Positions 34,047 to 63,895 of a stretch of DNA of 64,000 nucleotides are shown here, piece after piece. Below the pieces are notes generated by a model. It was given only the letters and a program-made list of their open reading frames with translations, did no database searches and was not told the DNA's origin. Location: NCBI RefSeq assembly GCF_026340655.1, contig NZ_JAPEOZ010000001.1, forward strand, positions 7,006,001-7,070,000. The letters are read 5' to 3'. This stretch comes from Streptomyces sp. NBC_01275 (GTDB taxonomy: Bacteria > Actinomycetota > Actinomycetes > Streptomycetales > Streptomycetaceae). Position 1 is the stretch's first letter. Every line of letters begins with the position of its first letter. The translations under genes were made by a program, and so were the position numbers.

Positions 34047-34493
34047 GTGGCCGACAACGCGCGCGCCAAGAGGCTTGCGGACCTCATCCGAGAGGTGGTG
34101 GCCCAGAAGCTGCAGCGCGGGATCAAGGACCCGCGGCTCGGCTCCCACGTCACCATCACGGACACCCGGGTCACGGGTGACCTCAGGGAAGCGACCATCT
34201 TCTACACCGTGTACGGGGACGACGAGGAGCGGGCCGCCGCGGCCGCCGGCCTGGAGAGTGCCAAGGGCATCCTGCGCTCCGAGGTGGGCCGCGCGGCGGG
34301 CGTGAAGTTCACGCCGACCCTGGCCTTCGTCGCCGACGCCCTGCCGGACAACGCCCGCACCATCGAGGACCTCCTCGACAAGGCGCGCATGTCCGACGAG
34401 AAGGTGCGCGAGGCGTCCGCGGGCGCCGGGTACGCGGGCGAGGCCGACCCGTACCGCAAGCCCGGCGACGACGAGGACGACGCCGCCGAATGA
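34047..34493 (+). CDS. rbfA: Ribosome-binding factor A
   Basis: This 148-aa protein is needed for late 30S maturation and 16S 5' end processing. The KH-like domain covers ADLIREVVAQKLQRGIKDPRLG to VKFTPTLAFVADALPDN, with the conserved Ala kink (RAAAAAGLESAKG). The C-terminal acidic tail (DDEDDAAE) overlaps truB by 4 bp. The start is a GTG after a GGGAGACGG ribosome site. Confidence 0.95.
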   Translation: MADNARAKRLADLIREVVAQKLQRGIKDPRLGSHVTITDTRVTGDLREATIFYTVYGDDEERAAAAAGLESAKGILRSEVGRAAGVKFTPTLAFVADALPDNARTIEDLLDKARMSDEKVREASAGAGYAGEADPYRKPGDDEDDAAE

Positions 34494-35392
34494 GCAAGCA
34501 GACCCCGCCCGACGGCCTCGTCATCGTCGACAAGCCGTCGGGCTTCACCTCGCACGACGTCGTGGCCAAGATGCGCGGCATCGCCAGGACCCGCCGCGTC
34601 GGCCACGCCGGCACGCTCGACCCGATGGCCACCGGCGTCCTCGTCCTCGGCATCGAGAAGGCGACCAAGCTCCTCGGGCACCTCGCCCTCACCGAGAAGG
34701 AGTACCTGGGCACCATCCGCCTGGGCCAGAACACCCTCACGGACGACGCGGAGGGGGACCTCACCTCCTCGGCCGACGCCTCCAAGGTCGCCCGGGACGC
34801 CATCGACGCCGGCATCGCCAAACTGAGCGGCGACATCATGCAGGTGCCGTCCAAGGTCAGCGCCATCAAGATCAACGGCGTGCGCTCGTACAAGCGGGCC
34901 CGCGACGGCGAGGACTTCGAGATCCCGGCCCGCCCGGTGACCATCTCCTCCTTCTCGGTGTACGACGTCCGTGACGCCGTCGCCGAGGACGGCACCCCCG
35001 TCCTCGACCTGGTCGTCTCGGTGGTCTGCTCCTCCGGCACCTACATCCGCGCCCTCGCCCGCGACCTGGGCGCCGACCTCGGCGTCGGCGGCCATCTCAC
35101 CGCCCTGCGCCGCACCCGCGTCGGCCCCTACAAGCTGGACTCGGCGAAGACGCTCGACCAGCTCCAGCAGGAGCTGACCGTGATGCCGATCGCGGAGGCG
35201 GCCGCCGCCGCGTTCCCCCGCTGGGACGTCGACGCCAAGCGCGCCCGGCTGCTCCTCAACGGCGTCCGCCTGGAGCTGCCCGACGAGTACGCCGAGGCCG
35301 GTCCCGTCGCCGTCTTCGACCCCGAGGGCGGCTTCCTGGCCCTGGTCGAGGCGCAGAAGGGGAAGGCGAAGAGCCTGGCCGTGTTCGGCTGA
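34490..35392 (+). CDS. truB: tRNA pseudouridine-55 synthase TruB
   Basis: This 300-aa enzyme makes pseudouridine 55 in the T loop of tRNAs. The catalytic Asp is in GHAGTLDPMATGVL, the KVSAIKINGVRSYKRAR loop and SSGTYIRALARDLG motif follow, and a short PUA-like C-terminal domain ends the protein. The ATG overlaps the rbfA stop. A terminator hairpin follows, [12 protein letters not shown] from the STAND-type gene. Confidence 0.96.
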   Translation: MSKQTPPDGLVIVDKPSGFTSHDVVAKMRGIARTRRVGHAGTLDPMATGVLVLGIEKATKLLGHLALTEKEYLGTIRLGQNTLTDDAEGDLTSSADASKVARDAIDAGIAKLSGDIMQVPSKVSAIKINGVRSYKRARDGEDFEIPARPVTISSFSVYDVRDAVAEDGTPVLDLVVSVVCSSGTYIRALARDLGADLGVGGHLTALRRTRVGPYKLDSAKTLDQLQQELTVMPIAEAAAAAFPRWDVDAKRARLLLNGVRLELPDEYAEAGPVAVFDPEGGFLALVEAQKGKAKSLAVFG

Positions 35393-35410: not shown

Positions 35411-35454
35411 CGTGGAGCGGCGAACACGGGGTTGTGCTGCGCCGCCGCTCCACG
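35411..35454 (+). terminator. 12-bp hairpin after truB
   Basis: CGTGGAGCGGCG (35411-35422) pairs with CGCCGCTCCACG (35443-35454) across a 20-base loop, 18 bp after the truB stop. In the rest of the gap, GTTCATTC occurs at 35501 and 35559, with an inverted GAGTGAAC at 35530, possible regulator sites for the next gene. Confidence 0.75.
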
Positions 35455-35641
35455 GTCCCCCCTCGGTTCCCCCACCCCTAGGGTGTATCCAACCGCCCCC
35501 GTTCATTCACCCGTCCGGGCAGGCGCTCGGAGTGAACCGAGGGAGCGCAGGGGGGCGCGTTCATTCCGCGATCTGTCCCGCTGATCATCCGGCCCCTACC
35601 GTCGAACGGAGGGCACGCGGGCGCGGCGGGGAGGTACCACG

Positions 35642-38600
35642 ATGGCGGGACGGGACCCGCGGACCGGCGGCGGCCACCGCGCACCCACCGAACCCACGGG
35701 CGTCTTCCCCGCCCATCCGGACCATCCGGACGCCTTCCACGCACAGCTGGACGCCTCCCTCGTCCGCATCCGCGACCTCGCCGGCCGCCCCCGCGGCACC
35801 GGCTTCGCCGCCGACCACCACGGCACGGTCCTCACCAGCCACGAGGCCGTCGACGGCCTGCCCCGACTCGTCCTGTACGGCGCAGGCGACCGCAGCTGCG
35901 TCGTGACCGCCGACGCCGTCACACCCCTCCCGGAGCTCGACCTGGCCCTCGTCCGCACCGAGGGACTCGGCGCGGACCCGCTCCCGGTGACCGTGCGCGA
36001 CCACGTCGAGACCGGCACGTACGTCAGACTGCTCGCGGGCTGCTGGCGCGAGGCGCGGGTGCTGGCCGAGGCGACGGTCACGTACACGGCCACGGACCGC
36101 TTCCACCTGCTCGACGGCGCGCTGGAGCTGGCGATCGGCACGGCGGGCCGGGACGCGCTGCGGCTGGGCGGGGGCGCGGCCGGCGGACCGGTGCTGGACG
36201 CCGCGACCGGCACGGTCGTCGCCGTCCTGGGCACCGCCCTGCAGTCCGACCACCGGGACGTCGGCTTCGCCGTCCCGCTGCGCCCCGCCGCGGGCCCACT
36301 GGCCGAGCTCCTCGCCCGTAACGCGGCGACCGTCCCCGCCTACGGCGCCGACCTCAACCTGGCGGGCGTCCTGGAGCTCACGGCCACCTCGGTGGGCTCG
36401 GACGGCCTGCCGGGAGCGCTGTCGGGCTGCCTCGGCCGGACCGACGGCGGATCTTTCGGCTCCGTCGGCTCCGTCGGTTCCGTCGGTTCCGTCGGTTCCG
36501 TCGGTTCCTTCGGTTCCTTCGGCGCGACGGTCGCACCCGTCGAACGCGCCGTCCCGGCCCGGGAGTTCGCCGCGTTCGCGACGAGCCCGGCGGCCGTCCT
36601 CGCCCTCGTCGGCGCCCCCGGCAGCGGTCGTACGACGGAACTCGCGGCCCTCGCCGCCCGCCGCAACCGGGGCCCCCGACCGCAGCCCACGCTGTGGCTG
36701 CGCGGCGCCGACCTGAGGGACGAGGACGCCTCGGTCGCGGACGCGGCCCGCAGGGCGTTGGTCCGGGCGGGACGCATCGTGGCCGCCGGCGCCCCTGGTT
36801 CCACCGGCGCCTCCGGCGGCTCCGGCGTCCTCGGGGACATCGGCGTCGAGCGGCTCGCCCGGCTCGCCCGTGCCGAAGGGCGGCCGTTGCTGCTGCTGCT
36901 CGACGGGCCCGAGGAGATGCCTCCCGTGCTCGCGCACCGGCTTTCCGAGTGGACCGACGGGACGGTCGAGTGGCTGCGGGAGAGCGGGGCGCGGCTGGTG
37001 GTGGCGTGTCGGGCGGAGTACTGGGAACGGGCGGGCGCGGAGTTCCCGCCCGGGACGCTGTACGGGACGGCGCAGGGAGGCGAAGAGGCGCGGGACGCGC
37101 TGCCGCCCTGCGTCCCGCTCGGCGACCTCACCCCCGACGAGGCCCGGGAGGTCCGCGCCCGTCACGCCGTGCCCGACACCGCGCTCGCCGCCGCCGACGC
37201 CCGACACCCCCTCACCCTCCGTCTGCTCTCCGAGATCCGCGCCGCCCTCCCCGACGCCCCGCCCGCCGCCGCCCCCGTGGACCGCGACGACGTCCTCTCC
37301 GCCTACCTCGACCTGATGTGCCTGCGTGTGGCCGTGCGCCTCGCCGCCGAGAACGGTCTGCGCGGCGCCGCCGTACGACGGCTCGCGGCGAAGGTCTCCG
37401 GGCAGGTGCACGAGGCCGCCCGCCGCAGTCTCGGGCCGGGGCAGGGAGAGCTGGACCGGGAGTCGTTCGAGGCGGTGTTCCCCTGGGGTCCGGCGCCCGC
37501 CCGGCTCGGCGGCGGCACCGGCTGGGCGTCCGCCGTCCTCACCGAGGGGCTGCTGGTGCCCGCGGGCGACGGCTACCGGTTCGCCCACGAGGAACTCGCC
37601 GACTGGATCCAGGGCGTCCACCTCGACCTGGACGAGGCTTTGCGTGCCCTGGTCCACCGCCGACGCACCCCCGACGACCGCCCTTCCCTCCCCGTCCCGC
37701 ACCACCGCATCGGCCCCGTCGTCCAGGCCCTGCTGCTCCTCGCCCGCCAGCACGGCACACCGCAACTGGCCGAGCGTCTGCGCGAGTTGGCCCACGCCCT
37801 GGACGCCGACCCGGGCTCGTGGTGGGCCGCCCGGCTGCTCGCCGAGACCCTGCTGCGCGTCCCGGACGCCACCCCGTACACCGACGTCCTGCGGATCCTC
37901 GCCGACCGGATCGTCGGGGGAGGGGCGGGGGCGGAGGAGACCGGCGGCCGTGCGGAAGCCGGTGGGCGGGCTGAGTTCGGCCATGCCTTCTGGACGCGGC
38001 TCGTCCTCGCGCCCGCCGCCCGTCTCGACCTCCTGCGCCGCCTGGTCCTCGCCGACGCGGCCCCGGGCGATGCGGGCGATGCAGGCCATGCGGGCGATGC
38101 GGGCCATGCGGGCGCCGCGCCGCCCCGCTATCTCGACGCCGTCGCCCGGCTTCTCGCCGCCGACCCCACCGCCGTACAGCCGCAGCTCGTCCGGTGGTTC
38201 GACGACGAGCGGGCGTTGCCCGCGACCCCGCACGCCACCGTGGCGACGGCCGCGCAGGCGTTGCTGCACACGCATCGGCACCGCGCCCTGGACGATCTCG
38301 CGGAGGTGCTCGTCGACCGAACGCACCGGCGGGCCGACGAGCTGCTGGCCGTGCTGGCGGAGGAGGAGCCGTCCGCGCTGTGCCGGGCCGTGGACCGATG
38401 GGCGCGCGACGAGCGGCCGTACCGGCGGGTCGCGGCGATGGACTACGGGCTGCGCGCCGCCCCGCACGTGACGACGGACGCCGACCGCCGGCTGCTGCGG
38501 TACGCGGCCCTCGCCCTGCTCGCCCGCCCCGCCGACGACGCCCTGCACGGCGGCGCGCTCGCCCTGCTCGTACGGGATCCGCGAAGCCGGGACCGGCATC

Positions 38601-39325
38601 TCCCGCGGGCGTTGGAGCGGTTCGGGGACGGCGATCCCCAGCTGCCGCCGAGCGCGCTGTTCGCCGCCCTGACCACGCACCCCGAGCCGGTCCTGGAGGC
38701 CTTCCGGACCCGGCTGCGCCGCCCCGACGCGGACGCCGGCCGCATCCTGCGCACGCTCGCCGACGTCACCACGTCCCCGCTCGCCCGCCGGGTCGCCGCC
38801 CTCGTCGGGGAGGTGTCGGCGGACCGTCCGGAGACCGCAGGCGCCGTGGCCGGGTACGTCGACCGGCGCCTCGACCACGGCCCCGCCGCCCGCGCCGTCC
38901 TCCTTCCGCTGGTCACGGGCCTGCTGGACGGCGGCGGCCCGGAGCCCGTACGGGCCGCCCTGGCCGTCGTGCTGGCCGCGCCCGGCACGCCCGACTCCCG
39001 GCCGCTGCGCCGTGAACTGCTGGAGTTCCTGCTGGCGCACGAGCACGCCCCGGAGGTCCTGGACGCCGTCCTGCACGCGGCCGGGGAACGGACAGGGGAG
39101 GACCTGCGGGCCCTCGTCCACCGCACCGGCCTGCTCCTCGTCCGCACGCCGGACGGCGCGGCCCGCTTCGACCGCGGACTGGTCGACCTGGCCCGGCACG
39201 TCCCCGGGTTCGCCGCGCAGGTGGTGGACTGGCTCACGGACGCGCCGGGGGAGTGGGCGGCCGTGGTCGGCCCCAGCGCGCGCCGCATGATCGAGAACCT
39301 GGCGGGGGTGCGGGTGCCCGCCTGA
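35642..39325 (+). CDS. Trypsin-fold (inactive) plus NACHT/STAND-like NTPase protein with long helical C-terminus
   Basis: This 1227-aa protein has three visible parts. Residues 35-215 look like a trypsin-fold domain: GTGFAADHHGTVLTSHEAVDG with His67, ELDLALV with Asp100 and GGPVLDAATG at the active-site loop. The catalytic Ser position is Ala180 (GGGAAGGPV instead of GDSGGPV). Residues 270-294 form a Gly-Ser-Val/Phe repeat linker. Residues 320-560 look like a NACHT/STAND NTPase: Walker A GAPGSGRTT (324-332, Arg replacing the usual Lys), Walker B LLLLLDGPEE (416-425) and a sensor-type Arg in VVACRAEYW. The remaining 650 residues are Ala/Leu-rich helices resembling HEAT-type repeats. GGGGAGG precedes the ATG. 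It stands alone between truB and ribF. A sensor or scaffold role is inferred. Confidence 0.78.
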   Translation: MAGRDPRTGGGHRAPTEPTGVFPAHPDHPDAFHAQLDASLVRIRDLAGRPRGTGFAADHHGTVLTSHEAVDGLPRLVLYGAGDRSCVVTADAVTPLPELDLALVRTEGLGADPLPVTVRDHVETGTYVRLLAGCWREARVLAEATVTYTATDRFHLLDGALELAIGTAGRDALRLGGGAAGGPVLDAATGTVVAVLGTALQSDHRDVGFAVPLRPAAGPLAELLARNAATVPAYGADLNLAGVLELTATSVGSDGLPGALSGCLGRTDGGSFGSVGSVGSVGSVGSVGSFGSFGATVAPVERAVPAREFAAFATSPAAVLALVGAPGSGRTTELAALAARRNRGPRPQPTLWLRGADLRDEDASVADAARRALVRAGRIVAAGAPGSTGASGGSGVLGDIGVERLARLARAEGRPLLLLLDGPEEMPPVLAHRLSEWTDGTVEWLRESGARLVVACRAEYWERAGAEFPPGTLYGTAQGGEEARDALPPCVPLGDLTPDEAREVRARHAVPDTALAAADARHPLTLRLLSEIRAALPDAPPAAAPVDRDDVLSAYLDLMCLRVAVRLAAENGLRGAAVRRLAAKVSGQVHEAARRSLGPGQGELDRESFEAVFPWGPAPARLGGGTGWASAVLTEGLLVPAGDGYRFAHEELADWIQGVHLDLDEALRALVHRRRTPDDRPSLPVPHHRIGPVVQALLLLARQHGTPQLAERLRELAHALDADPGSWWAARLLAETLLRVPDATPYTDVLRILADRIVGGGAGAEETGGRAEAGGRAEFGHAFWTRLVLAPAARLDLLRRLVLADAAPGDAGDAGHAGDAGHAGAAPPRYLDAVARLLAADPTAVQPQLVRWFDDERALPATPHATVATAAQALLHTHRHRALDDLAEVLVDRTHRRADELLAVLAEEEPSALCRAVDRWARDERPYRRVAAMDYGLRAAPHVTTDADRRLLRYAALALLARPADDALHGGALALLVRDPRSRDRHLPRALERFGDGDPQLPPSALFAALTTHPEPVLEAFRTRLRRPDADAGRILRTLADVTTSPLARRVAALVGEVSADRPETAGAVAGYVDRRLDHGPAARAVLLPLVTGLLDGGGPEPVRAALAVVLAAPGTPDSRPLRRELLEFLLAHEHAPEVLDAVLHAAGERTGEDLRALVHRTGLLLVRTPDGAARFDRGLVDLARHVPGFAAQVVDWLTDAPGEWAAVVGPSARRMIENLAGVRVPA
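36458..36523. repeat. In-frame 9-bp minisatellite in the STAND-type gene
   Basis: About seven units of the GGTTCCGTC type code for repeated Gly-Ser-Val, the last two Gly-Ser-Phe. The unit is a multiple of three, so length changes keep the frame. It forms the linker between the protease-like and NTPase domains. A second in-frame repeat (GCGGGCGATGCGGGCCAT type, Gly-Asp-Ala-Gly-His-Ala) lies at about 38068-38115. Confidence 0.85.
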
Positions 39326-39443: not shown

Positions 39444-40388
39444 GTGCAGCGCTGGCGTGGCTTGGAGGACATCCCCGAGGACTGGGGACGCAGCGTCGTC
39501 ACCATCGGCTCCTACGACGGGGTCCACCGCGGGCACCAGCTGATCATCCGGCACGCCGTGGACCGCGCCCGCGAGCTGGGCGTCCCCGCCGTCGTCGTCA
39601 CCTTCGACCCCCACCCCAGCGAGGTCGTCCGCCCCGGCAGCCACCCGCCGCTGCTCGCCCCGCACCACCGCCGCGCCGAACTGATGGCGGAGCTCGGCGT
39701 CGACGCGCAGCTGATCCTCCCCTTCACGCAGGAGTTCTCCAAGCTGTCCCCGGCGGACTTCGTGGTCAAGGTCCTGGTCGACAAGCTGCACGCCAAGGCG
39801 GTCGTCGAGGGCCCCAACTTCCGCTTCGGCCACAAGGCCGCGGGCAACGTCGACTTCCTCACCGAGCAGGGCAAGGTCTACGACTTCGAGGTCGAGGTCG
39901 TCGACCTGGTGCTGTGCGGCGAGGCGGGCGGCGGCCAGCCGTTCTCCTCGACCCTGACCCGACGCCTCGTCGGCGAGGGCGACGTGGCGGGCGCCGCGGA
40001 GATCCTCGGCCGGCCGCACCGTGTCGAGGGCGTCGTGGTGCGCGGGGCGCAGCGGGGGCGGGAACTCGGCTTCCCCACGGCGAACGTGGAGACGCTGCCG
40101 CACACCGCGATCCCGGCCGACGGCGTCTACGCCGGCTGGCTGCACGCGGACGGCGAGGCCATGCCGGCCGCGATCTCCGTCGGCACGAACCCGCAGTTCG
40201 ACGGCACCGAGCGCACGGTGGAGGCGTACGCCATCGACCGCGTCGGCCTCGACCTGTACGGCCTGCACGTCGCCGTCGACTTCCTCGCCTTCGTGCGCGG
40301 CCAGGCGAAGTTCGACTCGCTGGAGGGTCTGCTGGAGCAGATGGCGGTGGACGTGCAGCGCTGCCGGGAGCTGGTGGCGGCGGAGTAG
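39444..40388 (+). CDS. ribF: Bifunctional riboflavin kinase / FAD synthetase
   Basis: This 314-aa enzyme makes FMN and FAD. The N-terminal adenylyltransferase domain has GSYDGVHRGHQLII and VVTFDPHPSEVV with NFRFGHKA. The C-terminal kinase domain has the VVVRGAQRGRELGFPTANV motif and the conserved TNPQFDG block. The GTG at 39444 has GAGGAG upstream (TTCGAGGAGAGCGG). It converges on the EspI-like gene across a very strong hairpin. Confidence 0.96.
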   Translation: MQRWRGLEDIPEDWGRSVVTIGSYDGVHRGHQLIIRHAVDRARELGVPAVVVTFDPHPSEVVRPGSHPPLLAPHHRRAELMAELGVDAQLILPFTQEFSKLSPADFVVKVLVDKLHAKAVVEGPNFRFGHKAAGNVDFLTEQGKVYDFEVEVVDLVLCGEAGGGQPFSSTLTRRLVGEGDVAGAAEILGRPHRVEGVVVRGAQRGRELGFPTANVETLPHTAIPADGVYAGWLHADGEAMPAAISVGTNPQFDGTERTVEAYAIDRVGLDLYGLHVAVDFLAFVRGQAKFDSLEGLLEQMAVDVQRCRELVAAE

Positions 40389-48230: not shown

Positions 48231-48511
48231 TGCCGTATGTGGGGAAACATGCGGAGTGTCACTCACTCTTTGTAGTGTGGTAGCACAACGCAGTACGAAC
48301 GACGCAGAACAAAGCACGCAGAACAGAGCACGAGGAGAGGCGCGAAGCGCACCAAGCCGCCGCCGGTCCTCGGTAGTGGCCCCCGGGGGAAGAGCCCCGG
48401 GTGCTTCGATCGAAGACCGGCCCGCACCGCACGGAGCGCTTCTCCGCCACCGTCCCCCTGCCACACGGGCAGCCACGGGACGAAAGACGACAAGTAACGG
48501 AGAAAACGCTA

Positions 48512-58716: not shown

Positions 58717-63688
<4,972 letters not shown>

Positions 63689-63776
63689 AGTTGCTCGCGT
63701 CCACTGTGTTGGTTCTGAAACCACGAACAGCCCCACGTCCGGTCACGGCGTGGTGCGGCTGAAACAGTTTCATAGT

Positions 63777-63895
63777 GTTTCGGTGGTCATAGCGTGAGGG
63801 AAACGCCCGGTTACATTCCGAACCCGGAAGCTAAGCCTCACAGCGCCGATGGTACTGCAGGGGGGACCCTGTGGGAGAGTAGGACACCGCCGAAC
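63777..63895 (+). rRNA. 5S ribosomal RNA
   Basis: About 119 nt starting GTTTCGGTGGTCATAGCG and ending near CACCGCCGAACA, whose ends pair to form helix I. It contains the conserved CCCGGTTACATTCCGAACCC block. It follows 23S by about 90 bp and is the last gene of the operon. Confidence 0.95.

Follow-up and report, generated by a model that had tools for sequence, protein, structure and literature searches.

A NACHT-like protein with an arginine P-loop and a trypsin fold lacking its nucleophile: a candidate switch between truB and ribF of Streptomyces

Introduction

What does a large protein that joins a trypsin fold to a NACHT-like nucleoside triphosphatase (NTPase) do at a fixed place in the Streptomyces chromosome? 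Bacterial NACHT/STAND proteins are known mostly as patchy immune sensors. The gene considered here lies in a stretch of 64,000 nucleotides from Streptomyces sp. NBC_01275 (contig NZ_JAPEOZ010000001.1, positions 7,006,001 to 7,070,000; this whole stretch is called the window below), between two genes that we take to be truB and ribF on the basis of matches in relatives. It is a large, conserved Streptomyces gene, yet uncharacterized. A preliminary description, made from the window alone, saw two altered enzymatic centers and proposed a binding or signaling scaffold with a stable chromosomal role. Our follow-up leads to a core-genome switch of the Streptomycetaceae, a STAND protein resembling nucleotide-binding leucine-rich repeat (NLR) receptors and equipped with a non-catalytic trypsin-fold arm, as the best explanation, one that we rate at about even confidence. 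Its parts differ in strength: alignments and a predicted structure model give good support to the architecture, the invariant Arg, the non-conserved triad, the fixed locus and the block found upstream in Streptomyces, while a binding role for the trypsin fold and the mechanism of the switch are what we infer from them.

Results

From N- to C-terminus, the protein is predicted to consist of a trypsin/HtrA fold, a variable linker, a STAND module of NACHT-like type that combines NTPase and winged helix, and a long alpha-solenoid (Table 1). The open reading frame (ORF) is as first described, and the residue numbers given for it were exact; an opposite-strand ORF of 1204 amino acids was dropped, as it is the plus-strand frame that has homologues and domain matches. 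Both folds claimed in the preliminary description were recovered, the trypsin fold (Trypsin_2, HtrA-like) by a Pfam score above the cutoff together with structure matches of the model, and the NACHT/STAND-like unit by the predicted combination of NTPase and winged-helix folds. NCBIfam gave only weak matches to the protein, all below cutoff. The solenoid was modeled mostly at a predicted local distance difference test (pLDDT) value of about 90, with low-confidence loops near residues 762–775 and 812–824. Of 7985 candidates scored in a protein search, 2608 reached E <= 0.001; among the 120 matches listed, lengths ranged from 1113 to 1379 amino acids, and all organism-named sources were Streptomyces.

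Conservation was read in three sets that may overlap, namely a close set of 121 sequences (the window plus the 120 listed matches), a diverse set (the window plus loci from genus and family genome draws; 50 locus rows for the protease site, with the duplicate L072 dropped), and a named-genome set that leans to close relatives because it holds the best 80 of at least 479 relatives (78 titled Streptomyces, two ‘Actinobacteria bacterium’). The Arg330 that replaces the Walker A Lys never varied, being present in 121/121 close sequences, 48/48 diverse rows and 80/80 named loci; the conservation that the preliminary description had asked about is thus real, and the Lys-to-Arg exchange is a fixed trait in view of the last two counts. 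Glycines 324, 327 and 329 of the P-loop were found in all 48 diverse rows, Asp421 and Glu424 in 46/46 and each in all 80 named loci, and the residue following the Walker B Asp was small (G, A or S) in 45 of 46 diverse rows. A Walker B motif whose Asp is followed by a tiny residue is a mark of NACHT-type STAND proteins, and it is present here; the Walker A Lys is replaced. Further conserved positions in the diverse rows are Pro523 (46/47), His649 (41/46) and Arg457 (42/45, the window not counted). By these alignments, the nucleotide pocket is retained except for the Lys-to-Arg exchange. We therefore favor a switch that responds to nucleotide over an inert scaffold: the earlier proposal of a ‘binding or signaling scaffold’ holds as far as it denotes a non-protease, but it is too passive for an NTPase whose other nucleotide-contact positions are retained.

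At the protease site, the window protein reads His67-Asp100-Ala180 instead of His-Asp-Ser, bearing out the notion of a trypsin fold without its nucleophile. His67 was present in all 121 close sequences, with the Asp position occupied by D in 96, N in 21, G in three and A in one; the 78 readable named loci all had His, followed at the Asp position by D (43), G (22), N (11) or A (2). Diverse rows, with each position read in 46, were more varied (His 42, L 2, R 1, Y 1 at the first; D 12, G 30, N 4 at the second). Ala at the Ser position is the rule in close relatives (A 117, S 3, G 1 in the close set; A 73, S 4, C 1 in the named loci), but conservation of Ala180, which the preliminary description had asked about, does not extend to the family as a whole, since the diverse rows gave A 23, S 16, I 2, T 2, V 1, R 1 and P 1. 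The occurrence of Ala in all three sets rules out a one-off mutation. The complete His-Asp-Ser triad was seen in two of the 78 named loci and in four of the 45 diverse rows with all three positions read. A midpoint-rooted tree of 55 rows (short search, support by the SH-like approximate likelihood ratio test, SH-aLRT, only) required at least four changes of the Ser state and at least 11 of the Asp state, counted irrespective of loss or regain; the Ser count is raised by three Ser-bearing close homologues that had been put into the tree deliberately. Taken as a whole, the triad is under relaxed constraint.

For the window gene versus the 12 best-scoring relatives among the 80 named loci, the ratio of nonsynonymous to synonymous substitution rates (dN/dS) was 0.14–0.45 in the trypsin region and lay below that of the NACHT part (0.34–0.46) in 11 of 12 comparisons; the winged helix (0.06–0.21) ranked lowest among the four regions in all but one of the 12 comparisons, and the solenoid gave 0.28–0.42. 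Purifying selection thus continues to act on the trypsin region, and retention of the domain for binding rather than cutting is the likeliest interpretation of the sequence data. That the protein is still a protease, with catalysis of a residual or variant kind relying on His67 plus a further residue, could be argued from the retention of this His and of the GGP loop in close relatives, and from the His-Asp-Ser triads of some relatives. We consider it very improbable, given that Ala occupies the Ser position in most close relatives, with Thr, Ile, Val or Arg found there in some Streptomyces, and that the Asp position is Gly or Asn in many.

Other features of the trypsin part and linker deserve mention. 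Glu68 (35843–35845), next to His67, was present in 42/47 diverse rows and 78/78 named loci, and two rows that have lost His67 (L082, L083) retain it; HtrA proteases have Val at the position after the catalytic His. Downstream of the trypsin barrel, at residues about 226–250 (36317–36391), the motif RNAATVPAYGADLNLAGVLELTA is conserved. Six relatives (G013, G042, G066, G076, G081, G084) had matches spread over more than one reading frame, the breaks lying in the linker or at other places and reflecting sequencing error, decay or split genes, and five further family-draw loci were flagged for one stop each within the match. Nothing supported a secreted or membrane protease: the N-terminus reads MAGRDPRTGGG, and the N-termini compared have no leader in common (no signal-peptide program was run).

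In 75 of the 80 named loci, truB and ribF enclose the gene; the other five loci are on contigs that end in or near it. In the genome draws, truB and ribF flanked it in the expected order at 20 of 23 genus and 18 of 29 family loci, the remainder being explained by contig ends or short fetched flanks and, in one case (L088), by a non-member. The place is thus fixed across Streptomyces, as had been presumed, which supports a stable chromosomal role. At E <= 1e-10, 23 of 25 genus genomes matched (one, G002, split over two contigs; another, G017, with a C-terminal fragment at a contig end) versus none of 16 other genomes. An even draw from the family yielded matches in 29 of 46 genomes, one of them (G059) via a weak match to a different protein, hence 28 of 46. 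The latter protein (L088 1036–3447, genus g10) is another trypsin-STAND protein with the Walker A motif GAGKT and an intact-looking protease loop, and a possible comparator for the ancestor. In the two genus genomes without the gene, truB and ribF are 180 and 276 bases apart; in four outside genomes where a single stretch contains the two genes (a fifth, G025, was left out of this measurement) the gap was 68, 229, 862 or 955 bases, the longer two holding open frames.

With the best 16 or 12 candidates per genome scored, no full-length member was found in 16 genomes outside the Streptomycetaceae; on the same basis, a second search gave matches in five of 56 genomes outside the genus, all inside the trypsin part of the profile. 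Three of the five were inspected; they carry the loop GNSGGP and are presumably HtrA- or MarP-like proteins. Among 72,556 plasmid and 50,697 phage records, there was no match. Protein distances tracked those of truB plus ribF (Mantel r 0.75; 37 of 52 loci usable), which fits vertical descent together with the neighboring genes. This pattern bears on the idea of a domesticated anti-phage STAND sensor, whose solenoid would recognize a phage product and whose clustered trypsin folds would activate a separately encoded effector. Such a function seems unlikely in light of the fixed locus and the apparent co-descent with the neighbors, the lack of matches on phage and plasmid records, and a comparison of the protein with the PADLOC defense models that returned no match at E <= 1. 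An AVAST-type proteolytic route, moreover, cannot work as such because the nucleophile is absent in the window protein.

Upstream of the gene, a conserved block containing an inverted repeat (TTCAC...GTGAA) was aligned in 18 regions; its core GGCGCTCGGAGTGAA, followed by GGGGGCGC, was exact in 17 and had one mismatch in L025. Among the 76 named loci with truB, the core was exact in 70, carried one mismatch in four and was not found in two, and at two Streptomyces loci without the gene the block was not found at up to two mismatches. Other genera ranged from exact occurrences (e.g., L064, L065) through one to three mismatches to none found, and in L071, L073, L074 and L081, for example, the block was weak or not found despite presence of the gene, so that it is not strictly tied to the latter. 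In Streptomyces the block goes with the gene, whereas it decays in other genera. In the window’s own genome, the core occurs exactly only once, with 58 matches at up to two mismatches versus 20 for a reversed control; a regulon governed by the block is not proposed. Nor is a BldD- or PhoP-like operator claimed, as there is a resemblance only and a literature search on the BldD consensus gave no match.

A hairpin between truB and the block was detected by its pattern in 22 of 43 truB-ended loci, corresponding to 22 of 25 in the genus (window included) and none of 18 in other genera, with fold energies of −24 to −41 kcal/mol; in the three genus loci missed by the pattern, an inverted repeat is visible by eye. 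A terminator scan found no T-tailed terminator between truB and the gene. At gathering score, Rfam placed no family near the gene and none on the block, and at E up to 5 the hairpin alone gave a match, at chance level (E 4.2). The sequence CCTACCGTC, some 40 bases ahead of the start codon, is conserved with small variants; the -10-like element within it is only suggestive, because a consensus scan found no sigma-70-type promoter upstream of the gene.

Together with the place between truB and ribF and the invariant Arg P-loop, conservation of the block upstream in Streptomyces and the failure to find it at both Streptomyces loci that lack the gene could be taken to indicate a regulator of development or stress, or one linked to translation. 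Its NACHT-like module would then be a scaffold locked by nucleotide, controlled for the most part at the level of expression by way of the block. To us this is doubtful: several members of other genera have the gene with a weak or undetected block, and the truB–ribF gap may be a mere tolerated slot, judging from the variable gaps in the outside genomes.

Table 1. Features of the gene and its surroundings (window coordinates)
Feature	Position	Strand	Basis
truB, upstream neighbor	34490..35392	+	matches in relatives
GC-rich hairpin after truB, possible terminator without T tail	35411..35453	+	pattern and fold energy
Conserved block, about 57 bases, with inverted repeat	35506..35562	+	alignment of upstream regions
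Core of the block	35522-35536	+	
Possible -10-like TACCGT	35597..35602	+	conserved with small variants in alignment
Gene for the pseudo-trypsin/NACHT-like/solenoid protein, 1227 amino acids	35642..39325	+	ORF, Pfam, homologues
Trypsin-fold domain, residues about 39-225	35756..36316	+	Pfam Trypsin_2, model, structure matches
Codon of Ala180 (catalytic Ser position)	36179..36181	+	alignments
9-base tandem repeat, 7.4 copies, in low-complexity linker	36456..36522	+	low-pLDDT linker in model
NACHT-like NTPase, residues about 299-560	36536..37321	+	predicted fold
Codon of Arg330 (Walker A Lys position)	36629..36631	+	alignments
Winged-helix region, residues about 561-680, motif YRFAHEE..DW.Q	37322..37681	+	
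Alpha-solenoid, residues about 690-1220	37709..39301	+	predicted model
ribF, downstream neighbor	39444..40388	+	matches in relatives

Elsewhere in the window, Rfam identified an Actino-pnp leader RNA (48362–48421, 66.4 bits) and a 16S-23S-5S rRNA operon (58717–63895, plus strand).

Discussion

If the protein is an NLR-like STAND switch, the solenoid might hold it in the off state or sense a partner, and the NACHT-like module would bind nucleotide through its Arg P-loop, with slow turnover or none. Activation would then lead to oligomerization and thereby to clustering of the trypsin-fold domains, which might bind a peptide or partner protein via the old substrate cleft, but not cut it. A more ambitious version, which we put forward tentatively and consider distinctly less probable, is a clade-wide, core-genome NLR-like receptor in which the obligate Arg P-loop makes a nucleotide-locked switch with slow hydrolysis or none, the retired protease serves as an arm for recognizing peptides or docking partners, the gene has its own upstream control element, and a NACHT-like receptor of conflict systems has moved into the normal physiology of a multicellular bacterium.

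Several observations weigh against an NLR-like switch with a non-catalytic arm. The NTPase of the window protein scores below the Pfam cutoffs (NACHT 13.3 bits versus 26.7; nSTAND_NTPase5 14.7 versus 34); with the NACHT model, 12 of 29 members matched at E <= 0.1 (best 0.0031), and the best E among 19 longer members was 1.8e-4, reached by one of them. The Arg P-loop could still allow hydrolysis. Proteolysis could persist in the Ser-bearing minority (4/78, 3/121 and 16/46), which includes the few complete triads (2/78 and 4/45), and retention of His67 (78/78; 42/46) goes beyond what complete non-catalysis requires. Finally, 18 of 46 family genomes gave no match to the gene, and it is absent from two of 25 genus genomes; it is therefore not essential everywhere.

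A switch with Arg for Lys and a protease fold turned non-catalytic, fixed at a core Streptomyces locus, would permit direct tests of two questions: by what means such switches operate when the Lys is missing, and how immune-type receptors become housekeeping parts. In Streptomyces coelicolor, SCO5709 is given as tRNA pseudouridine synthase B in an excerpt of PMC6344877, and SCO5711 as riboflavin kinase/FMN adenylyltransferase in part of PMC9282665 and as hypothetical in part of PMC3224560. By position alone, the counterpart of the gene should be SCO5710, a locus tag that was not found in the main texts searched. Among the papers listed for Walker A motifs with Arg and for core-genome NACHT proteins in Streptomyces, there was likewise nothing on this protein.

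Among known systems, the animal NACHT receptors NLRP3, NLRC4 and NOD2 differ in several respects, as the protein described here has Arg for the Walker A Lys, an N-terminal trypsin fold, a helical solenoid and a score below the Pfam NACHT cutoff. The pseudo-protease MamO differs as well, as it binds metal and has a transporter domain, with no NTPase described for it in the portion of the literature consulted. The SAMD9 family is alike in combining a STAND-like NTPase of deviant Walker A with downstream helical repeats, and a Foldseek comparison of the whole model with this family gave E 6.6e-6 over 1033 columns, but at a TM-score of 0.15 and a root-mean-square deviation of 26.8. In the SAMD9 order AlbA-Sir2-NTPase-TPR-OB, AlbA and Sir2-like domains stand where our protein has its N-terminal trypsin fold, and the Lys is replaced by Gly, according to an excerpt of PMC5445408, instead of Arg. 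The VMAP and iSTAND ternary conflict systems of multicellular bacteria differ in setting, the immediate neighbors here being truB and ribF (no search for vWA and MoxR genes was made beyond these two); they are alike in that trypsin folds are joined to signaling proteins, and many of these trypsin-fold domains are inactive, as stated in part of PMC7159879. The bacterial Avs/AVAST STAND proteins, finally, share the N-terminal trypsin-like domain, some of them carrying a fused trypsin-like protease according to the available part of PMC12799240.
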